Positions 1 to 34,048 of a DNA stretch of 34,048 bases are shown here, piece after piece. A model generated the notes under the pieces. It saw only the letters and a program-made list of their open reading frames with translations. It was not told where the DNA came from and did not search any database. The stretch is from the NCBI GenBank assembly GCA_021821045.1, contig JAKACW010000047.1:1-34048 (forward strand), read 5' to 3'. Source of the stretch: Pseudomonadota bacterium. Lineage in GTDB: Bacteria; Pseudomonadota; Gammaproteobacteria; JAADHS01. The position numbers were made by a program, and so were the translations under genes. How positions within the stretch are numbered: position 1 is the stretch's first letter; each line of letters opens with the position of its first letter.

Positions 1-1300
1 CCCGCTTGCCAAGATCAGTATCCCCACGCCAACCGTTCACCTGCGCCCAGCCGGTAATGCCCGCCTTGACCATGTGCTTCTTCATATACAACGGGATTTC
101 GTCTTTGAACTGATCCACAAAGATCGGGCGCTCGGGACGTGGTCCCACGATTGACATATCGCCCTTGAGAACATTTAGAAATTGCGGTAGCTCATCAAGA
201 CTCGTGCGCCGTAAAAACGCGCCGAAACGGGTGGCGCGGACCTCGCCTTTGCGGGCCCACACCGGGCCGGTCTCCGCTTCGACAGTCACCGGCATCGATC
301 GGAACTTCAGCATCATAAATCGCTTGTTGTTCCAGCTCACGCGTTCTTGTCGATAGAACACCGGGCCCGGCGAGCTGAGTTTTACGCCAATCGCAATGGC
401 CAACATGAGCGGACTGATCGCCGCCAAAATCAACAACGCAAGGAACCGATCCCCCAGATCCTTGATGAACCCGTTGACGCCCTGCAACGGCGACGCGCTC
501 AAATTGAGTATGGGCACACCGGCCACTTCGCCGATAGAGTGATTGACCAGGTTGAAAGCGAAAATATCGAGCACGTAACGAATTTCGACCGTATGGTGAC
601 GAAGTGCATGGAGGACCGCTTTGACTTTATCTTCCGCCTTCAGCGGATAGACCACCCAGACCTGATCCACTTCGTGGCCATCGATGTAGCGGCTAACGTC
701 GGCAATGGCTCCAAGGTACGGCAACTTGGGGTCGGACACCTCTCGCCGCGCCGGCGATCGATCGTCGAAGTAACCGAGGACGCGCAAACCGGTCCAGTTC
801 GCCTTGCTGATCTGATCGGCAATCTGAACGCCCCGCTCGCTCAGCCCAACGATGATGACGCTGCGTTGATTGTAGCCGCGGCTTCGGAGTACGCGCAGGA
901 CGACGCGCAGAAGGGCTCGAAAACCGGTGAGCAGAACCCAGCCTGCAATGAACCAACTGACTAGCCACTGCGGAAACAGCGGCAGACCGGCGCCGGAGAT
1001 TGCATAGACGCTGCCCAGCGCCGCAAACACGGCAAGCCAAGCGCCGCTTACCACGCGCAACTCCATCGCCGTGGACGTGCCGCGCCACGCGCGATAAAGC
1101 AAGAAATGATTAAAGAAAACGATGGTACAAACCAGGCCGAGAGCGATCTGCAATTTATATGAGTAACTTAACGTCCAGTTTCCCGACGTCCACCAGTAGG
1201 ATACCCAGCCGGCAACGCCGACGGCGATCAAGTCTAGCGACCGCATGATAAACAGTAGGAGGCTGGAGTGTTCTCTCAGTACACCTTCCCGCGCAATCAT
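1..1300 (-). CDS. Polyprenyl-phosphate sugar-1-phosphate transferase (WcaJ/EPS sugar transferase family), 3' end missing
   Basis: Integral membrane enzyme expected to start exopolysaccharide repeat synthesis by moving a sugar 1-phosphate from a UDP-sugar to undecaprenyl phosphate. The frame is open from ATG at 1298-1300 to the window edge, giving 433 residues; the C-terminal few dozen residues are outside. Hydrophobic segments fill roughly residues 7-110, a central Rossmann-like region follows, and a further helix lies near residue 300 (FLALLILAAISPLMLAIAI). The catalytic domain carries the hallmarks RRTSLDELPQ and GDMSIVGPRPE (Met at residue 382), then KAGITGWAQVNG. An AAGG lies directly before the ATG, so a slightly later Met (near 1252) is possible. 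It is separated from the main eps operon by a plus-strand lipoprotein gene, so it is probably its own transcription unit. The sugar is not predictable from sequence. Confidence 0.93.
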   Translation of the reverse strand, partial: MIAREGVLREHSSLLLFIMRSLDLIAVGVAGWVSYWWTSGNWTLSYSYKLQIALGLVCTIVFFNHFLLYRAWRGTSTAMELRVVSGAWLAVFAALGSVYAISGAGLPLFPQWLVSWFIAGWVLLTGFRALLRVVLRVLRSRGYNQRSVIIVGLSERGVQIADQISKANWTGLRVLGYFDDRSPARREVSDPKLPYLGAIADVSRYIDGHEVDQVWVVYPLKAEDKVKAVLHALRHHTVEIRYVLDIFAFNLVNHSIGEVAGVPILNLSASPLQGVNGFIKDLGDRFLALLILAAISPLMLAIAIGVKLSSPGPVFYRQERVSWNNKRFMMLKFRSMPVTVEAETGPVWARKGEVRATRFGAFLRRTSLDELPQFLNVLKGDMSIVGPRPERPIFVDQFKDEIPLYMKKHMVKAGITGWAQVNGWRGDTDLGKR

Positions 1301-13039: not shown

Positions 13040-15643
13040 TTACGACACTTTGCGCGGCTCTGGTCGAGACTCGCGATCGATGTCCCAAAACAGATCGTAG
13101 TCCGCCTCGACCGTTTTTGGGGCGCCGCGGTCGATCTCAACCTTCGCGGCGGGCCGCTCAGGCTGGTAGGTCAGCAGTTTTGGCTTGTCGTTTTCGCGAC
13201 GCTTTTTGAAGGCTTCGCGGACGCGTTCGGCGACACCTTTTACTCGGGCGGTCAACCAAACATCTACGGACCGCCTTTCCTTCTTCGATGGCGGCTCCGC
13301 CTCCGCGGCGGGCTTGGGAAGTACCGGAGACGGCGCGCTTACCCGCGCCGGCTGAGCCGCCGCAGTGAATTCGGTCAGGACCGATCCGACCAATACCGTC
13401 TTCGTTCGTTCAAGTCGCTGCTCGAGCTGCTGCAACATCTTCATGCGCGTGACGTCGCGCCGCGCCACGAGCAACGCACCGCCGGCGCGAACCGCGACAG
13501 TCTCGGCGTCCGCGCCGGTCATGCACGCCGGCGTATCAATCAAGATAACGTCGTAGAGCTTACCGAGTTCGTTCAACAGATCACGAAAGCGCGGAACAGT
13601 GAGCAGTTCAAGCGGATTGGGTGGAACGGGACCGCTCGGCAGCACCCACAGATTGGGAAAATGCGGCACGCTCACGGCGACAGTGTCCACGGACAACATG
13701 GTGCCGACCGCCACGCCCCCGGCGCGCCCGGATAGCACGCCAGCCATCCCCCGGTCATTGCGCGCCTTGAATAGTTTGTGCATTCTTCCGCCCCGCAGAT
13801 CGGCGTCCACGATCAGGGTGCGTTGCCCGAGCTGCGCGAAAACAATGCCAAGATTGGCAGTCAAGTAACTGCGCCCAGCGTCATGGTCCGGTCCGATCAC
13901 GGCAAGCGACTTGCGACCCTTCTCGAACCACCGCAGCAGCAATTGGGCACGCAAGCGACGAAACGCCTCGACTTCCGGATTAAAGGGCTGGTAGGCCGCA
14001 ACCAATTCGTTCGAATACCCGCCTTCGCCCGGTCGCAAACAGGAGTAATCGTATTGCCGCGCGAGCGTGTACATCACGTCCTCCCGCGACAGCAGCCCCA
14101 ACGAGACCGCGGCCTCGCCGAACCGTTCGCCGCTCGCCCGTTGCCGCGCGAGGATGGCGACAACGTCGTCCAAAAGCAGCGTGCGTTCGGACAAGAGAAT
14201 TTGCCCCAGCGCTTTGCGTGGCGTGGGCATCGGCTGTTCGCCAAGCGTTTCGGATGCGCCGCGGATTCCCTGTTCGTGGGCCGGCCGATCGCCGTGGGCC
14301 ACGACGGCCAACAGCGGCGCGCGCACCCCCAGCGCAAGATCATCCTCGCTGCGCACGCGGCGATCGTACAGCTCTCTTGCGATGCTTAGGTTTATGCCAA
14401 GGAACAGCCCGATAAACAATGCAACGCTCATGTTGAGCATGGGACGGGGGCGCGAGGGGTCCACGGGCGCCACGGCCGGTGTCAGCACGGCAACGTTGGT
14501 CTGGTTGACGCGACTTTGCAGTGTGTTTTCGTTAACGCGGGCCAATGCCGCATCATAGGAGCGTTGCGCACTGTCCACCTCGCGCAGAAGCGCCGGGAGC
14601 GTGTCACGCTGCTCGCGCAAGTTGAGCACCTTCTCTTTCTGGGCCTCGACCATGCGGCGAAGTTCATGTTCGCGCTGTTCCGCCAGTTTCGCGTCATTGC
14701 GCATGCCCGCCATAACAGTCCGCATTTCGGTCTTGAGCTTGGTCTTCAGACTCGTCAGCTCAGACTGAGCGGCTTTATATTCCGGATGATTCCGACCCAT
14801 GCTCTGGGCAAACTCGGTCAGTCTCGACTCTTGCTGCAAAATTTGTCCCTTGAGCGTCTGGATGAATGAATTCGACATGATGGCAGGAAGCGTTTCTGGA
14901 TCCCCTCCCTTGGCGATTATCTCTTCCATCTGCAGGATGCGCTCGTTGGCGTTTTGCGCTTCGAGTTGGCCCATGGCAAGCTGATAGCTGAATTCGTTCA
15001 AGCGCGATGTCTCGAGGTCCACCCGCTCGTCGGTGGCCACGATGCCTTGCTCTTTCTGATACACCGTCAATCGCCGCTGACTCTCCTCGACGCGCCGTCG
15101 TAAATCATCCAACTGGCTATCGAACCATGCCACGCTCTGTCGCGCCGGCTCCACCGCCAGTTTGAGCGTCGTCTCGATGTACGCCTGAGCGAAGGCATTG
15201 GCCGTTTGCGCCGAGAACTCCGGATCAAGGGAGTCAAAACTGATGTCGATCACGCGACTCTCGCGCGCCGGCATCACGGTCATATCTTGAAGCAGCGCCT
15301 CGGCGAGCCAATCCTCGATGCGGCCGCGTCCCTGCGTTTTTTCGATGAACTGATCACGCGCCGCGGGGGAATTGGACAGGTCCATGATTTCAACCACGCG
15401 CCGTGCCACCGCCATGCTGCGCACAATATCGACCTGGGTAGCCAAATAGCCGCTCTGTGCTTGGGCAGGTGACGCCCCGGCAGCAAGCGGTTCGCTGTAA
15501 TCAAGGACCAAAGACACCGTCGCCCTGTATTGCTTGGGCATGAGATAGGTTATAGCCGCGCCCAACAGAAGCGTCGCCGCCGTTACCAGCGCTATGAATC
15601 GAGCGCGAGCCCGCAGAATGGCCAGAATCTGAGTTAACGTCAC
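13040..15643 (-). CDS. EpsF-EpsG fusion: Wzz-type chain-length determinant joined to BY-kinase-like domain
   Basis: 867 residues in one uninterrupted frame. Residues 1-450 are EpsF-like: helix 14-34, a Wzz/GNVR coiled-coil periplasmic region, a PSRPRPML proline-rich segment near 397-403 and a second helix near 405-422. Residues 472-760 are EpsG-like: an MshEN-like segment (ALGQILLSERTL... RFGEAAVSLGLLS), then a ParA/BY-kinase fold with a P-loop-like GPDHDAGRS (584-592), Walker A' TLIVDADLR (609-617) and Walker B DVILIDTP (698-705). The usual P-loop Lys is Arg591, which I recall as common in EpsG. A basic 100-residue tail with few tyrosines follows. In the methanolan-type cluster epsF and epsG are separate genes; here they are fused as in Wzc. 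The protein would set polymer length and couple polymerisation to export. Met472 (ATG near 14230) could be a relic EpsG start. Confidence 0.93.
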   Translation of the reverse strand: MTLTQILAILRARARFIALVTAATLLLGAAITYLMPKQYRATVSLVLDYSEPLAAGASPAQAQSGYLATQVDIVRSMAVARRVVEIMDLSNSPAARDQFIEKTQGRGRIEDWLAEALLQDMTVMPARESRVIDISFDSLDPEFSAQTANAFAQAYIETTLKLAVEPARQSVAWFDSQLDDLRRRVEESQRRLTVYQKEQGIVATDERVDLETSRLNEFSYQLAMGQLEAQNANERILQMEEIIAKGGDPETLPAIMSNSFIQTLKGQILQQESRLTEFAQSMGRNHPEYKAAQSELTSLKTKLKTEMRTVMAGMRNDAKLAEQREHELRRMVEAQKEKVLNLREQRDTLPALLREVDSAQRSYDAALARVNENTLQSRVNQTNVAVLTPAVAPVDPSRPRPMLNMSVALFIGLFLGINLSIARELYDRRVRSEDDLALGVRAPLLAVVAHGDRPAHEQGIRGASETLGEQPMPTPRKALGQILLSERTLLLDDVVAILARQRASGERFGEAAVSLGLLSREDVMYTLARQYDYSCLRPGEGGYSNELVAAYQPFNPEVEAFRRLRAQLLLRWFEKGRKSLAVIGPDHDAGRSYLTANLGIVFAQLGQRTLIVDADLRGGRMHKLFKARNDRGMAGVLSGRAGGVAVGTMLSVDTVAVSVPHFPNLWVLPSGPVPPNPLELLTVPRFRDLLNELGKLYDVILIDTPACMTGADAETVAVRAGGALLVARRDVTRMKMLQQLEQRLERTKTVLVGSVLTEFTAAAQPARVSAPSPVLPKPAAEAEPPSKKERRSVDVWLTARVKGVAERVREAFKKRRENDKPKLLTYQPERPAAKVEIDRGAPKTVEADYDLFWDIDRESRPEPRKVS

Positions 15644-17775: not shown

Positions 17776-18264
17776 CTAAGCCACGACGCTTAGGCGTTGG
17801 GATCGTCGGCGAGCGAACCAACCGAGCGCCCCGATACCGCCGACCATCATGAGCCAGGTTTCGGGTTCAGGAACAGCGCCCACCATTCCGGGCCGCTTCT
17901 TTGGGCCGCCCCCGGTGCTCCAGGCTGGACCACCCACTTTCAGCTTATTCTTCGAAAGAAAGGCGTGACTGAATTTACCCGCAACAGAATTAGCAATCGG
18001 CGGGAGCGAACTCGGAAACTTGGGCAGACCCTTGAATTGCGCGACACCACCTTGCGTAGCGGACGATCCGAAAACCTTCCATCCACTCTGCGACGGCTTA
18101 ACGGCTGGAGTGCTGCTATAACTGGACTGATTGAACTTCAGGCTTCCGCAGGTTCCAACGGTTGAACCCCAACTACAGTTCGTTCCACCCGCGGCTGCAG
18201 TACCCGCGGTACACAGCAGACCGACTGCGATGGTGAATCCGGCCACACGAAGACGGGACAACAT
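17776..18264 (-). CDS. PEP-CTERM sorting domain protein (probable exosortase substrate)
   Basis: 162-residue secreted protein. Start ATG with SD AAGGAGGG just upstream. Signal peptide: MLSRLRVAGFTIAVGLL to about AAAGG (residue 27). The mature part is short, rich in Gly/Ser/Pro, with Cys30 and Cys39 as the only cysteines, and no recognised domain. The C-terminus is a textbook PEP-CTERM tail: VPEPETW at 131-137, hydrophobic LMMVGGIGALGWF, then ARRRSQR. XrtB encoded in the same window would be expected to cleave at or near PEP. It is the gene just upstream of the eps operon on the same strand, and divergent from the large GT-C/glycosidase gene. The role may be as a surface or matrix protein tied to the polysaccharide. 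Confidence 0.94.
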   Translation of the reverse strand: MLSRLRVAGFTIAVGLLCTAGTAAAGGTNCSWGSTVGTCGSLKFNQSSYSSTPAVKPSQSGWKVFGSSATQGGVAQFKGLPKFPSSLPPIANSVAGKFSHAFLSKNKLKVGGPAWSTGGGPKKRPGMVGAVPEPETWLMMVGGIGALGWFARRRSQRLSVVA

Positions 18265-18552: not shown

Positions 18553-21500
18553 GTGGACAACCACATCGGGCCGCTCCGCCGCCACTTGCCGGCTGACGGC
18601 GCCCCGCTCATCCGCCGCGCACTCGAACACGCTCTAACCTCTTGGCGTTGGTTAGTCGACGCGTTGCGTACGGACTGGCTGTCGTTAACGGTCCTCGGAC
18701 TGACCGTCGCGGCCGCTGCGCTCTACTTCCATAACCTTTCCGGAAAACTGCCGGCGATTCTGTACGAGTCCGACCAACTACTGGAAAATGTGTGGTTCGA
18801 GGCTGACCTTCATCGCGTCTTCGACAATATGACGGATCGGGCCAGCGACCATTACCGCACCAAGGTGCATCCAATTTTTTCTCTTGCTGCCTTTCCCCCG
18901 GTGCATGCACTGACGATGCTCGGATTCACGAAGCTTGATGCCGTTCGTTTGTTTGTGGCGGCCGCGGCGGGTTTGTGGGCCGGACTATTCTTGCTTACAT
19001 TGCGGGCGGTCGGACTGCCTCGGCTCGACGCGGTGTTGTTCACTCTGCTCGCCTGTGCCAGCGCCGCCGCCACATTTTTCGCCTCGGTTGCCGAAACCTA
19101 CCTGTTTGGCTCAATCACCTTACTAGTGGTCATGGCCGTGGCCGCGCGCGCGCACGCGCATCCTCCCCCGCCACTCATTCAGACGGTCGTGAGCGCCGGT
19201 TCGCTGAGTATGACGGTAACCAACTGGATGGCGGGTCTCGCCATGGCATTTGCGCTGAACCGCCCGCGCGGTGCGCTGGCAATCACGCGCGATGCGTTCC
19301 TGCTGATCGTGGCGGCATGGTGCGTTCAGAAGCTTATTTTTCCGTCTGCCGAGTTTTTTATTTCACGCGAAGAGCTGAAGTACACGACGTTCGCGATGAC
19401 GGATACCGGAGGTCCGCTGGAACGTTTCATGGTTCTGCTGTCCCATGGCATGGTCATGCCGGCCATCGCAACCGTCGACAACCCGCTTAACCATAACTGG
19501 CCGCTGCTGACCGTGCAGCGTCAAATGCTCACCACCCATACGCCGTCGGGCGCCGTGGCAGTGGTGTTGTGGGCTGTGCTCCTCGTCGCAGGCACCGTTA
19601 CCATGCTCAGACGCATGGACGGCCGGATACTCGCCGCGGTCATCGGGTTAACCGTTGTCGGGCAGGCGGGTCTGCATCTGGTCTACGGCAACGAGTCATT
19701 TCTTTACACATTGCACCTCACTCCGCTCCTGGTTCTGCTTGCAGCGATGGGTGCGCTGTCTCGCATCCGTCCGTGGGTATTGGTTGCGGCCGCGGCGCTC
19801 ACTGTCCTGGCGGGTGTTAACAACCTGACCCGTTTGGACAGCGCCGTAGAAATCATCGCATCGGCGGATGAACAAGCCGGCGCGACACAAGGAGTCAACG
19901 AGCGACGACGCCTCGCCGCCATGGCCCGTTCCCATCCGACGGCCGATTGGCCAAAGTCCTCGGGTCACGTTGTGCTCGCCCCGGCCCACGCGCCGCTGGA
20001 AGGCAAGGGTTATCACGTGCCAGGGGGAAGTTTCAGCCCGGGCTTCGGCAGCTTTGGCATTTCGATCGCTCTGTTCAACGGCGACGGATCAATGCGCGCT
20101 TCGTCCAACAGCATCGCGCCGGAAGACATTCGCCAGCGGCTGCTGGAATCGGAATTGCCTGGCCGATACGCGATTGAGACGACGACGCCAAACTATGACG
20201 CCGTGTGGACAAGCCGCGATCCGGGCGAGTGGGAGCTTGAACTCACGCCCGCGCCGATAATCCACGGCAAGGTCGCATTGCGCATCACCAGCGCCGGACC
20301 TGCCGGCGGGCGTCTGCGTTCGGTTGTGCGAAGCGGCCACGATGTCATCGTTAATGACCGATGGCGCATGAGAATCGATCCACCGCCTCTTGATCTCGCC
20401 TACCAAGCGGAATGGGATGCCCCTCGGTGGTCCACAGCGGATAAAGCGCTGACGTCCGATACGTGGCGCCACGGTTTCGGCGCCGCCGTCATCCTCGTGG
20501 ATTCCATGGCGCGAACTCGAATAATCGTCACGGACACAGCGCTGCCGCGCGAGCAAGCACGTCAGCACTCTGCCCAGCACGCCTCCGACCTGCGTATTGA
20601 TCTGCCCGACGCCGCGTTCGCCTCCAGCTTCCACGCACAGATCGCCCATCTGCGCATGGGTCTGATCGACAATGAAACGCGTCCCGGTGATCCCGGTAAC
20701 TACGATCAGCCCTGGACCCGCGATGGCGGCTACACCATCGTGGCACTGGCGCGCGCCGGCGACCAAATGCTAGCGGAGTCCTTGGCCTTGGACTATGGCC
20801 GTGAGGACTTTTTCGGCGGCTTCGGTGCCGAGGCGGACGCACCGGGCATTGCCAATTGGGCGCTGGGCGAAGTGGCGTTGCGAACGACCGATCCCACGGT
20901 GCTTGCCGCGCTCTGGCCGCACATGATGCGCAAGGCGGAACTGACACTTGAGATGCTCAATACAAGCACGTCCCTTTACAAAGAGTTTGCGGGAACGGTT
21001 ATTCCGGAACTGAGACGCGAGAAACACGCCGATATCACCCACGTGGCCGCCCCGGGTACGGATGGTTTGATCAACGGCACGATGGACCATCACCGCCCCG
21101 TGCTCTACGTCACCGCCATGAACTACTTGGGGCTGCGGCACGCCGCGGCAGTCGCCTTGCGACTCGGCCACCCTCAACAGGCCGCCGCGTGGCAAAGTGC
21201 CGCCGATAAAATGCGAACGTCCTTCGTCGCGCAGCTCGGGACTCATCCCGACCGATACAACGACCGTACGGCGATCTCCGCGTTATGGCCCAGCGGCATC
21301 GTCAATGCTGACAATCGCGATTTTCACCACGTCCTCGACCAACGCTGGCGGCAAACTCGAACGGCGGGCGGCGATTTTCACGAGGTGCCGCTTTGGACGT
21401 ACTTCGAGCTGGCCAACGCCCATCAACATCTGATGACGGGTCAAGTGAGCCGCGCATGGGAAACCCTGCACTGGTTCTGGCACAACCAGGCATCGCCAGG

Positions 21501-21915
21501 CCTCTACACCTGGTGGGAAGGCAATGGCGAAGAAAATAGCGCGGGTCTGTGGCAGAAAGTGCGTGGCTGGATCGCGCCGCAGCACGTGACACCACACTAC
21601 TGGACAGCGGCCGAGATGCTGCTGTTGCAGCTGGATATGCTGGCGATGGAAAATCCAGGTTTCGATCCGGCCGACTGCGGCAATGTCCAACTCACCATCG
21701 GCCAGGGCGTTCCCGCCGACTGGCTGGCGGAGACGGTCCGCATCGAAGGCATGCCCTTACGCTGCGGCCGCATTGACTGGACATGGCAGAATGGCGTCGT
21801 CACCGTAGCGTGGCGAGGACAAGCGAAGCCCGTGGTGAAGCTGGGCCCCGGATTTCCGCAGAACACGCCGGTTGTGCTGCACCACGTTACGCCGCACGCA
21901 AGCGGGCAAGGCTAA
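18553..21915 (+). CDS. Large membrane protein: GT-C-like membrane half fused to six-hairpin glycosidase-like domain
   Basis: 1120 residues from GTG 18553. Residues 43-425 hold about 10 hydrophobic helices. An acidic loop (YESDQLLENVWFEAD, 71-85) and KVHPIFSLAAFP (104-115) recall GT-C enzymes such as PMT/ArnT-type transferases, which use a lipid-linked sugar. Residues about 465-660 look like periplasmic beta-sandwich sequence. From about 690 the protein resembles alpha/alpha-toroid glycosidases (GH15/GH63-like): NYDQPWTRDGGYTIVALARAGD (716-737), DGLINGTMDHHRPVLYVTAMNYLGLRHAA, and a late TWWEGNGEENS (986-996) with possible catalytic acids. I know no standard name for this combination. The reading frame is intact. 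A role in adding to and trimming cell-surface glycan is inferred. It is divergent from the PEP-CTERM gene and convergent with a small transporter gene. Confidence 0.85.
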   Translation: MDNHIGPLRRHLPADGAPLIRRALEHALTSWRWLVDALRTDWLSLTVLGLTVAAAALYFHNLSGKLPAILYESDQLLENVWFEADLHRVFDNMTDRASDHYRTKVHPIFSLAAFPPVHALTMLGFTKLDAVRLFVAAAAGLWAGLFLLTLRAVGLPRLDAVLFTLLACASAAATFFASVAETYLFGSITLLVVMAVAARAHAHPPPPLIQTVVSAGSLSMTVTNWMAGLAMAFALNRPRGALAITRDAFLLIVAAWCVQKLIFPSAEFFISREELKYTTFAMTDTGGPLERFMVLLSHGMVMPAIATVDNPLNHNWPLLTVQRQMLTTHTPSGAVAVVLWAVLLVAGTVTMLRRMDGRILAAVIGLTVVGQAGLHLVYGNESFLYTLHLTPLLVLLAAMGALSRIRPWVLVAAAALTVLAGVNNLTRLDSAVEIIASADEQAGATQGVNERRRLAAMARSHPTADWPKSSGHVVLAPAHAPLEGKGYHVPGGSFSPGFGSFGISIALFNGDGSMRASSNSIAPEDIRQRLLESELPGRYAIETTTPNYDAVWTSRDPGEWELELTPAPIIHGKVALRITSAGPAGGRLRSVVRSGHDVIVNDRWRMRIDPPPLDLAYQAEWDAPRWSTADKALTSDTWRHGFGAAVILVDSMARTRIIVTDTALPREQARQHSAQHASDLRIDLPDAAFASSFHAQIAHLRMGLIDNETRPGDPGNYDQPWTRDGGYTIVALARAGDQMLAESLALDYGREDFFGGFGAEADAPGIANWALGEVALRTTDPTVLAALWPHMMRKAELTLEMLNTSTSLYKEFAGTVIPELRREKHADITHVAAPGTDGLINGTMDHHRPVLYVTAMNYLGLRHAAAVALRLGHPQQAAAWQSAADKMRTSFVAQLGTHPDRYNDRTAISALWPSGIVNADNRDFHHVLDQRWRQTRTAGGDFHEVPLWTYFELANAHQHLMTGQVSRAWETLHWFWHNQASPGLYTWWEGNGEENSAGLWQKVRGWIAPQHVTPHYWTAAEMLLLQLDMLAMENPGFDPADCGNVQLTIGQGVPADWLAETVRIEGMPLRCGRIDWTWQNGVVTVAWRGQAKPVVKLGPGFPQNTPVVLHHVTPHASGQG

Positions 21916-21932: not shown

Positions 21933-22310
21933 TTAGGAACGCGCCACCAAACTTACCCCGACCACAACCAACAGGGTGCCGATAAGACGGGGCACCGTTA
22001 CCGATTCTTGCAGCAGTAAAATGCCGAGAATCATGGTGACGAGGAAGCCCAGTCCCACGAAGGGATAGGCCTGGCTGACGTCCAGCCGGGCCAGCACCAG
22101 CAACCACACCACGGCTCCGATCCCGTAGGTCAACAGGCCAAGCAGCACATAACCATTACCGCCGTACGCCAGGAGCGTACTCAACATCCCCATTGGGTCC
22201 GCGGCCGGCCGCACGGCTTCGACTTTCGACACGCCAAACTTCAACGCGATTTGGGCAAGAGCGGACAAGGTTACGCTGAACAGAATCAGCAGCAGTATTT
22301 TTAGGGTCAT
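21933..22310 (-). CDS. EamA/SMR-type small membrane transporter (four helices)
   Basis: 125-residue membrane protein with four hydrophobic segments: LKILLLILFSVTLSALAQIAL, GYVLLGLLTYGIGAVVWLLVLA, AYPFVGLGFLVTMILGILLL and LIGTLLVVVGVSLVA. The size and the segment WLLVLARLDVSQAYPF fit the drug/metabolite transporter superfamily, near ArnE/ArnF-like half-transporters that flip lipid-linked aminosugars, or SMR drug exporters. AGGA lies about 8 bases before the ATG. Beside the GT-C-like gene, a role in moving a lipid-linked sugar is attractive but not shown. The two stop codons are 17 bases apart, with no strong terminator between them. Confidence 0.87.
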   Translation of the reverse strand: MTLKILLLILFSVTLSALAQIALKFGVSKVEAVRPAADPMGMLSTLLAYGGNGYVLLGLLTYGIGAVVWLLVLARLDVSQAYPFVGLGFLVTMILGILLLQESVTVPRLIGTLLVVVGVSLVARS

Positions 22311-32877: not shown

Positions 32878-34048
32878 TCACGTGTTTGCTGCTATCCACT
32901 GGTCCAGAGTTTTGTTAACTGCTGCCTTCAAAAAGTTCGAACTTAGGTCGGAGCGCAACAGGATGTCCATAAACTGCGCCCCGACATCCTCCCGGCAGCT
33001 CGCAACGTTCTCGGCGGTTGGACGTTTGCCGCAAGCCGTCTGTTTGTCCAATAAGTCCTGGGCGGATGCTGATTCAAAAATCACCTGCTGAATTTCTGTC
33101 GCCAACATTTCCTCTAGTGCCGGGGTAAGGAGAGGGTCCGCAATGACTCGCAGCAAATCCCAGGAGCGAACGAGATCCCAGATCCATTGGATACCGATGG
33201 TTGCAACTGCACGCGGTTGTAGCTGCGTCGGATCAATCTTTGTTTCCAACAGCTCGCCCGCATTCAGCACCCCTTCGCCCATATGCTCAACGGTGTATTC
33301 AGCCGGTTTTTTTGCCGACCGAATGAGAGCTTGGTACACCGCCTCCGCTTTGCGCCAGTCTCTCCAAAGACCCTTCTGCTCCAGGTCATCGCGATTAAAC
33401 TGGAGCCATAGCGAAGCGGCGGCAGCCACCTGCGGGGTTGCGTGTGACGCCCCGCCTCCGTCTAACGCCACAGCAGCCCTGTCGGATGTCGACGGCCATG
33501 AGTGGAGGATATTCGGAACGTAGGCCACCAGAACATGACCTTCCATAACCGAGGCGGGTCCAAAGTTGCCTCGAAACATCCACGGCAACAAATACTGGTT
33601 CCATTTCCAAAACTTCAATAGGCAGCCGTAACAGGGTGCCTTGCCGTAACTTCTTCCACGCTCGGTGATTCCGGCCACACCAATCACTCGATTAAATCGC
33701 GCAGGGAACCCCACTGTGCTAGGCGTTAACGTGAAACTGGTAAAAGGAAACACGAAAAAGTCGCCTGTTGCCGCAATGATTGCCGTGCCCTTGTTATATG
33801 CCTTGTTGACAGCCTTGCGCTGGGCGATCGACGGCAACCCACCGGCACTTAGAGATATCACATCGGCGCCTTCGTCGACCGCGCGCGCGATCGCAGCCGA
33901 CATCTCACTCGGGTTCAAATGAACGTAACCGGTCACTTTCCGACGTTCTTCCCTCGCGCGCCTCTCGCGCGTAAAACGTGAAGCCCAATTCGGCGACATT
34001 GTTTTGCAAGGGGGCGTGATGAGCAAAGGGAAACTGCGCAAGGTGTTT
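32878..34048 (-). CDS. Subtilisin-like serine protease (S8), 5' end outside the window
   Basis: The minus-strand frame is open to the right edge; first in-frame start in the window is TTG 34041, giving 387 residues. It corresponds to the C-terminal part of an S8 protease: AIARAVDEGADVISLSAGG, KGTAIIAATGDFF, PARFNRVIGVAG and the serine motif GGGASHATPQVAAAASLWL (Ser199 counting from that start). The Asp and His of the triad must lie beyond the edge. Where classic subtilases have Asn (AAGN) for the oxyanion hole, this has Asp94 in AATGD. A long helical C-terminal tail of about 150 residues follows. Whether it is active is uncertain. Residues before about 36 do not look like S8 and may mark a different start. 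Confidence 0.8.
   Translation of the reverse strand, partial: NTLRSFPLLITPPCKTMSPNWASRFTRERRAREERRKVTGYVHLNPSEMSAAIARAVDEGADVISLSAGGLPSIAQRKAVNKAYNKGTAIIAATGDFFVFPFTSFTLTPSTVGFPARFNRVIGVAGITERGRSYGKAPCYGCLLKFWKWNQYLLPWMFRGNFGPASVMEGHVLVAYVPNILHSWPSTSDRAAVALDGGGASHATPQVAAAASLWLQFNRDDLEQKGLWRDWRKAEAVYQALIRSAKKPAEYTVEHMGEGVLNAGELLETKIDPTQLQPRAVATIGIQWIWDLVRSWDLLRVIADPLLTPALEEMLATEIQQVIFESASAQDLLDKQTACGKRPTAENVASCREDVGAQFMDILLRSDLSSNFLKAAVNKTLDQWIAANT

Follow-up and report, generated by a model that had tools for sequence, protein, structure and literature searches.

A 1120-residue protein joining a putative GT-C-type membrane transferase to a toroid glycosidase-like domain beside an exopolysaccharide cluster of a gammaproteobacterium

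Results

A fused gene lies next to an EPS/exosortase cluster

The window, which is the whole 34,048-nucleotide stretch of DNA analysed here, comes from a gammaproteobacterial genome of 4.50 Mb in 140 contigs that is 98.5% complete; the assembly is not closed. It carries a long gene whose product consists of a membrane half, a linker and a toroid glycosidase-like half (Table 1). As the earlier note had described, the reading frame is intact, and its third-position GC stayed at 0.66-0.76 across ten blocks covering both halves, so that there is no hint of a chimaera or a shadow frame. The motifs PWTRDGG and TWWEGNGEE occupy residues 720-726 and 986-994, respectively. Both neighbours pointed out in that note, a PEP-CTERM protein and a flippase-like transporter, were recovered as well; the flippase gene shares no operon with the fused gene. 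In addition, the fused gene adjoins a full EPS/exosortase cluster encoding EpsD, EpsE, EpsF-G, DUF3485, an exosortase and glycosyltransferases. A single 867-residue frame at 13040-15643 on the minus strand of the window matches both the EpsF-type chain-length determinant and the EpsG-type tyrosine kinase models.

Table 1. Coordinates of the fused gene, its parts and the associated genes (window positions unless a contig is given)
Feature	Position	Strand	Basis or remark
Whole fused gene	18553..21915	+	1120 residues, GTG start, uninterrupted frame
Membrane half, residues 43-440	18679..19872	+	Relatives and operon setting suggest a GT-C-type transferase
External loop after TM1, residues 78-115	18784..18897	+	Invariant F82, D85, R88, H100, H106, P107 (four-sequence alignment)
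Linker, residues 450-660	19900..20532	+	Between the halves; no family match
(alpha/alpha)6 glycosidase-like domain and tail, residues 661-1091	20533..21825	+	Profile matches to relatives
Altered loop after hairpin 3, residues 838-859	21064..21129	+	Alignments to relatives
E989 of WWE, candidate general base	21517..21519	+	Invariant in 15 relatives
EamA/ArnF-like small flippase	21933..22310	-	Convergent with fused gene; homology to flippases of polyprenyl-phosphoribose synthase (PPPRS) loci
PEP-CTERM protein	17776-18264	-	E 2e-7; divergent from fused gene
3' end of HAD-UbiA PPPRS gene	G000:C28 (L007) 1-328		Abuts repeat end

Relatives of the two halves were found separately. Stand-alone relatives of the membrane half are proteins of 401-436 residues, and residues 667-1091 matched, by HMM and hhalign, a family separate from these. 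The two-part architecture proposed earlier is thus genuine, and the sequence comparisons support a different ancestry for each half. Neither the fused protein nor its pieces matched a Pfam model, the whole protein matched no NCBIfam model, and the fused protein alone found nothing significant among PDB sequences. The statement that neither half belongs to a named family therefore holds, and such proteins would be annotated only as hypothetical. AlphaFold returned a mean pLDDT of 38.5 for the full protein from its single sequence and of 36.9 for the membrane half with one relative; with both values under 40, the folds assigned to the two halves derive from homology and gene context.

Two relatives of the membrane half follow a polyprenyl-phosphoribose synthase (PPPRS) and a small flippase

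Many hydrophobic peaks were observed from residue 49 to residue 419. The membrane half (about residues 43-440) had no Pfam match, and a PDB sequence search with its profile found nothing. When about 85,000 species genomes were scanned with 8-residue patterns, which reach close relatives only, a single locus (L002, in a Pseudomonadales MAG) was obtained, with 39% identity over residues 78-432. This relative is a complete protein of 401 residues, 38-39% identical to the membrane half, and its gene stands directly after those for a HAD-UbiA protein and a 121-residue flippase-like protein. The identical three-gene order was present on a Haematobacter plasmid (L008, Alphaproteobacteria), where the third gene product and the window protein share 30% identity; hence a HAD-UbiA synthase and a small flippase directly precede a membrane-half relative in two different classes. 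Both HAD-UbiA proteins matched NF006088 at 618 and 540 bits (NCBIfam cut-off 351), and they also matched decaprenyl-phosphate phosphoribosyltransferase models below cut-off. A third stand-alone relative, on a Chloroflexota plasmid (L017), has 27% identity and is without synthase or flippase neighbours. A weak match in genome G492, partial and within a 242-residue ORF, was rejected as chance. Viral contigs contained no match to the membrane half or the toroid half.

In an alignment of four divergent sequences, the external loop after TM1 holds a conserved acidic residue, D85, a candidate catalytic residue of the membrane half. Judged from the alignment, the six invariant residues of this loop are as expected of a working GT-C site. 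Furthermore, EamA or GtrA flippases recur at other plasmid-borne PPPRS loci while the transferase varies, being PMT_2 in Rhodovulum, GT22 in a sphingomonad and an unmatched protein in Vibrio. On an Azospirillum ramasamyi plasmid (L054, 3438-6362), a GT87 domain forms the N-terminus of a 974-residue PPPRS, so that donor synthase and GT-C transferase are a single protein. The presence of GT-C families (GT87, PMT_2 and GT22) at these loci supports a GT-C reading of the window's membrane half. The GT-C-like half of the earlier note is in this way both retained and given a setting, as its family occurs with PPPRS and small flippases, where GT-C enzymes act as the transferase; by analogy, we infer a GT-C fold. 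In the Vibrio alfacsensis plasmid (L052), the unmatched protein of the PPPRS-EamA operon has 486 residues, and a gene annotated as an exosortase A-associated O-glycosylation ligase lies about 5 kb away.

Compared with the flippases of four PPPRS loci, that of the window showed identities of 51% (Azospirillum), 47% (Vibrio), about 45-46% (L002) and 36% (Haematobacter); its match to the NCBIfam ArnF model (E 8e-14) was below cut-off.

The only PPPRS trace in the genome is a fragment

The full gene set of HAD/UbiA synthase, flippase and transferase is present at L002 and L008; the window locus carries the flippase and transferase only, and the synthase is an apparently interrupted 3' fragment elsewhere in the genome. 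This sole PPPRS trace covers the last 78 model positions on contig C28, with a stop codon just before it. Copies of the first ~96 bases of C28, 99-100% identical, stand at six other places, and the sequence after them differs each time. This pattern resembles the end of an insertion element; this synthase copy thus appears to be interrupted. The assembly contained neither its 5' part nor an intact PPPRS, suggesting that the pathway may be incomplete in this genome. A 27-base, 96% match to the insertion-element-like end also occurs at 33924-33950 of the window, within a subtilase-like ORF near the contig end.

The second half is related to toroid glycosidases

In a single comparison (E 6e-12), residues 616-1120 matched a protein from genome G196 with a discoidin domain, and this protein in turn gave weak matches to Bac_rhamnosid6H, GDE_C and GH15, all below cut-off. 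A profile including the window sequence retrieved discoidin-type proteins as a strong group and, in the class, a second one whose members have about 750-800 residues. To search the PDB, we used a profile of 16 relatives from which the window protein was left out. With E values up to 1 accepted, it found 21 PDB sequences, the best being rhamnosidase B (E 5.9e-7); MmpH, dextran dextrinase, glycogen debranching enzymes, glucoamylase, glucodextranase and beta-D-arabinofuranosidase were also among them. These enzymes share the toroid fold, and toroid-type glycosidases were the profile's only PDB matches. The same profile aligned with the toroid half of the window protein at an hhalign probability of 99. 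These comparisons bear out the earlier assignment by homology: at the sequence level, homologues of the second half are found in the (alpha/alpha)6 toroid glycosidase superfamily.

The discoidin-(alpha/alpha)6 proteins (L005, L013, L015, L016, L031-L042) share W-x-RD, ExD and H-x-W with the window's toroid; they begin with a discoidin domain where the window protein has a membrane enzyme. Three of them (L005 7491-14581, L013 3526-8009 and L016 960-7418) adjoin GH94-like, SOGP-like or glucoamylase-family genes, and these proteins are possibly a beta-1,2-glucan enzyme family for whose catalytic domain Pfam has no model. The second toroid family (L043-L050) is distant from the discoidin group and carries the motifs YWDD, EWDANG and WPEAIHP. 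Elsewhere in the source genome (G000:C135:46592-47866), a GH94 domain lies in a 2890-residue frame that is probably a cyclic beta-glucan synthase.

The altered residues of the toroid cluster in one loop

Members of the (alpha/alpha)6 superfamily commonly carry their general acid on the loop after hairpin 3. An alignment with 15 relatives gave a set of invariant residues, most of which the window protein retains, among them P711, G712, Y717, W721, R723, D724, E760, D762, D904, Y950, E989, H1015 and W1017. Its main difference is one cluster of changes in the hairpin-3 loop, namely S to D845, E to H847, W to Y852, D to V853 and D to T854. The W-D pair of this loop was present in 22 of the 22 relatives inspected and is Y852-V853 in the window protein; relatives in the first alignment had been pre-filtered for the WDD motif, and the remaining relatives with loci, read afterwards, all had W-D. 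The profile alignment breaks off at this loop. The HMM and hhalign alignments concur in placing no acid at the W-D position. The loop carboxylates conserved in the nearest relatives, including the discoidin-type proteins, are thus absent, while E989 is retained. The alignments behind this apparent loss of catalytic acids have 20-27% identity, and D845 lies nearby.

The earlier note had seen the making and trimming of a glycan in one polypeptide. With the clustered invariant carboxylates lost (E to H847, D to V853) and the other invariants kept, this part of its claim has become doubtful; by analogy, a toroid with most of its pocket but without the loop acids is likelier to be a binding domain. 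With an alignment this distant and D845 in the vicinity, the toroid may nevertheless be active.

The fusion was found once, and its exosortase link is positional

No second fusion was detected in 369 genomes of the class or 398 of the phylum (overlapping samples), nor with the 8-residue patterns, limited to close relatives, in the about 85,000 species genomes. The fused gene was absent from the other two of the three genomes searched in its order. In the literature on GT-C/glycosidase fusions or on GT-C enzymes with exosortases, we found no description of such a fusion.

A tie to exosortase, suggested earlier from the gene neighbourhood, was not supported: among the genes checked beside the membrane-half relatives, no exosortase or PEP-CTERM gene was identified, and a genome of the same family (G002) has two exosortases and no fused protein. 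Co-occurrence was followed in few genomes, and the association was seen once. The exosortase link is positional only. The polysaccharide of the adjoining EPS cluster is a plausible acceptor.

Discussion

Three-component pentofuranose systems consist of a PPPRS with a HAD phosphatase domain, a flippase and a GT-C transferase, the prototype being Citrobacter youngae ORF15/14/12, with a HAD-UbiA synthase (ORF15), a MATE flippase (ORF14) and a GT136 transferase (ORF12) whose last TM helix is followed by a glycan-binding CBM (PMC11127046). The operons of the window protein's relatives (L002 and L008) share this HAD-UbiA/flippase/GT-C layout, although their flippases, like that of the window, are of the EamA/SMR type rather than MATE. 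ORF12 and the window protein both have an added periplasmic C-terminal domain, which is a beta-rich CBM in the former and a relative of toroid glycosidases in the latter; the likeness to GT136 is one of layout and description. The C. youngae system includes its synthase, whereas an intact one was not found in the window genome. The mycobacterial arabinofuranosyltransferases EmbA/B/C and AftD, which also carry CBMs, use a lipid-linked pentofuranose supplied by DPPRS, a UbiA-type synthase, and Rv3789, an SMR-type flippase (PMC11127046). The likeness again lies in the UbiA-type synthase, the SMR-type flippase and a GT-C enzyme with extra carbohydrate-binding domains; the window transferase, however, has no detectable sequence relation to a solved structure, and a toroid replaces the binding module.

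On this basis, we consider that the fused protein may act last in a three-component glycosylation pathway of the periplasm, with the toroid holding the acceptor, a tentative reading to which we give a probability of roughly 0.45. A PPPRS would transfer a pentofuranose from PRPP to polyprenyl phosphate, the adjoining small flippase would bring the lipid-linked sugar to the outer face, and the membrane half, of GT-C type with D85 as candidate, would transfer this sugar to a glycan at the surface, for which the exopolysaccharide made by the adjacent cluster is the most plausible candidate. At the C-terminus, the toroid would be a former glycosidase that has lost its loop carboxylates, kept much of its other conserved surface, and holds the acceptor glycan; it stands where GT136, Emb and AftD carry their carbohydrate-binding modules. 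We infer the pentofuranose donor, the identity of the acceptor and the binding role of the toroid, the last by analogy.

A truly bifunctional protein, in which the GT-C half adds a sugar and a catalytically competent toroid with a rearranged acid (e.g. D845) acts as a hydrolase or transglycosylase that removes sugars from, or edits, the same periplasmic glycan, appears unlikely. Such an enzyme would agree with the retention of W721-x-R723-D724, E760-x-D762, E989, H1015 and W1017, and cyclic beta-1,2-glucan synthases likewise join a transferase and a toroid in a single polypeptide, although theirs are GT84, not GT-C, and GH94, another family. However, H847 and V853 replace the E and D that are invariant in this loop after hairpin 3, in the stretch where the profile alignment breaks off. 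If the toroid were competent, side-chain density would be set within a single polypeptide.

The lack of an intact PPPRS in the genome can be read in two further ways. The protein could be a relic of a decaying pathway, left without donor in this strain after an insertion element entered the synthase gene, with its toroid drifting. The PPPRS fragment, abutting a repeat end seen at six other places and lacking a 5' part in the assembly, fits such decay, but neither the 1120-codon frame, with its even codon bias, nor the flippase is disrupted, and the toroid changes are concentrated in one loop rather than spread; moreover, the assembly is unclosed and the C28 synthase copy may never have served the fused protein, so that we regard a relic as quite improbable. 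Equally improbable to us is a GT-C transferase that uses another lipid-linked sugar, for instance an undecaprenyl-phosphate-bound hexose or aminosugar, together with a small flippase of this type and a binding toroid. The resemblance of the flippase to ArnE/ArnF models as well would suit this, yet a PPPRS is encoded in both operons of membrane-half relatives, and the window flippase is similar to those linked with a PPPRS.

The fusion, known from one genome, is a new variation on a recently described pathway. It would extend the periplasmic pentofuranosylation pathway by an unnamed transferase family with members in Pseudomonadota and Chloroflexota, and it offers a case in which a glycosidase fold has apparently been recruited for holding the acceptor of a GT-C enzyme.
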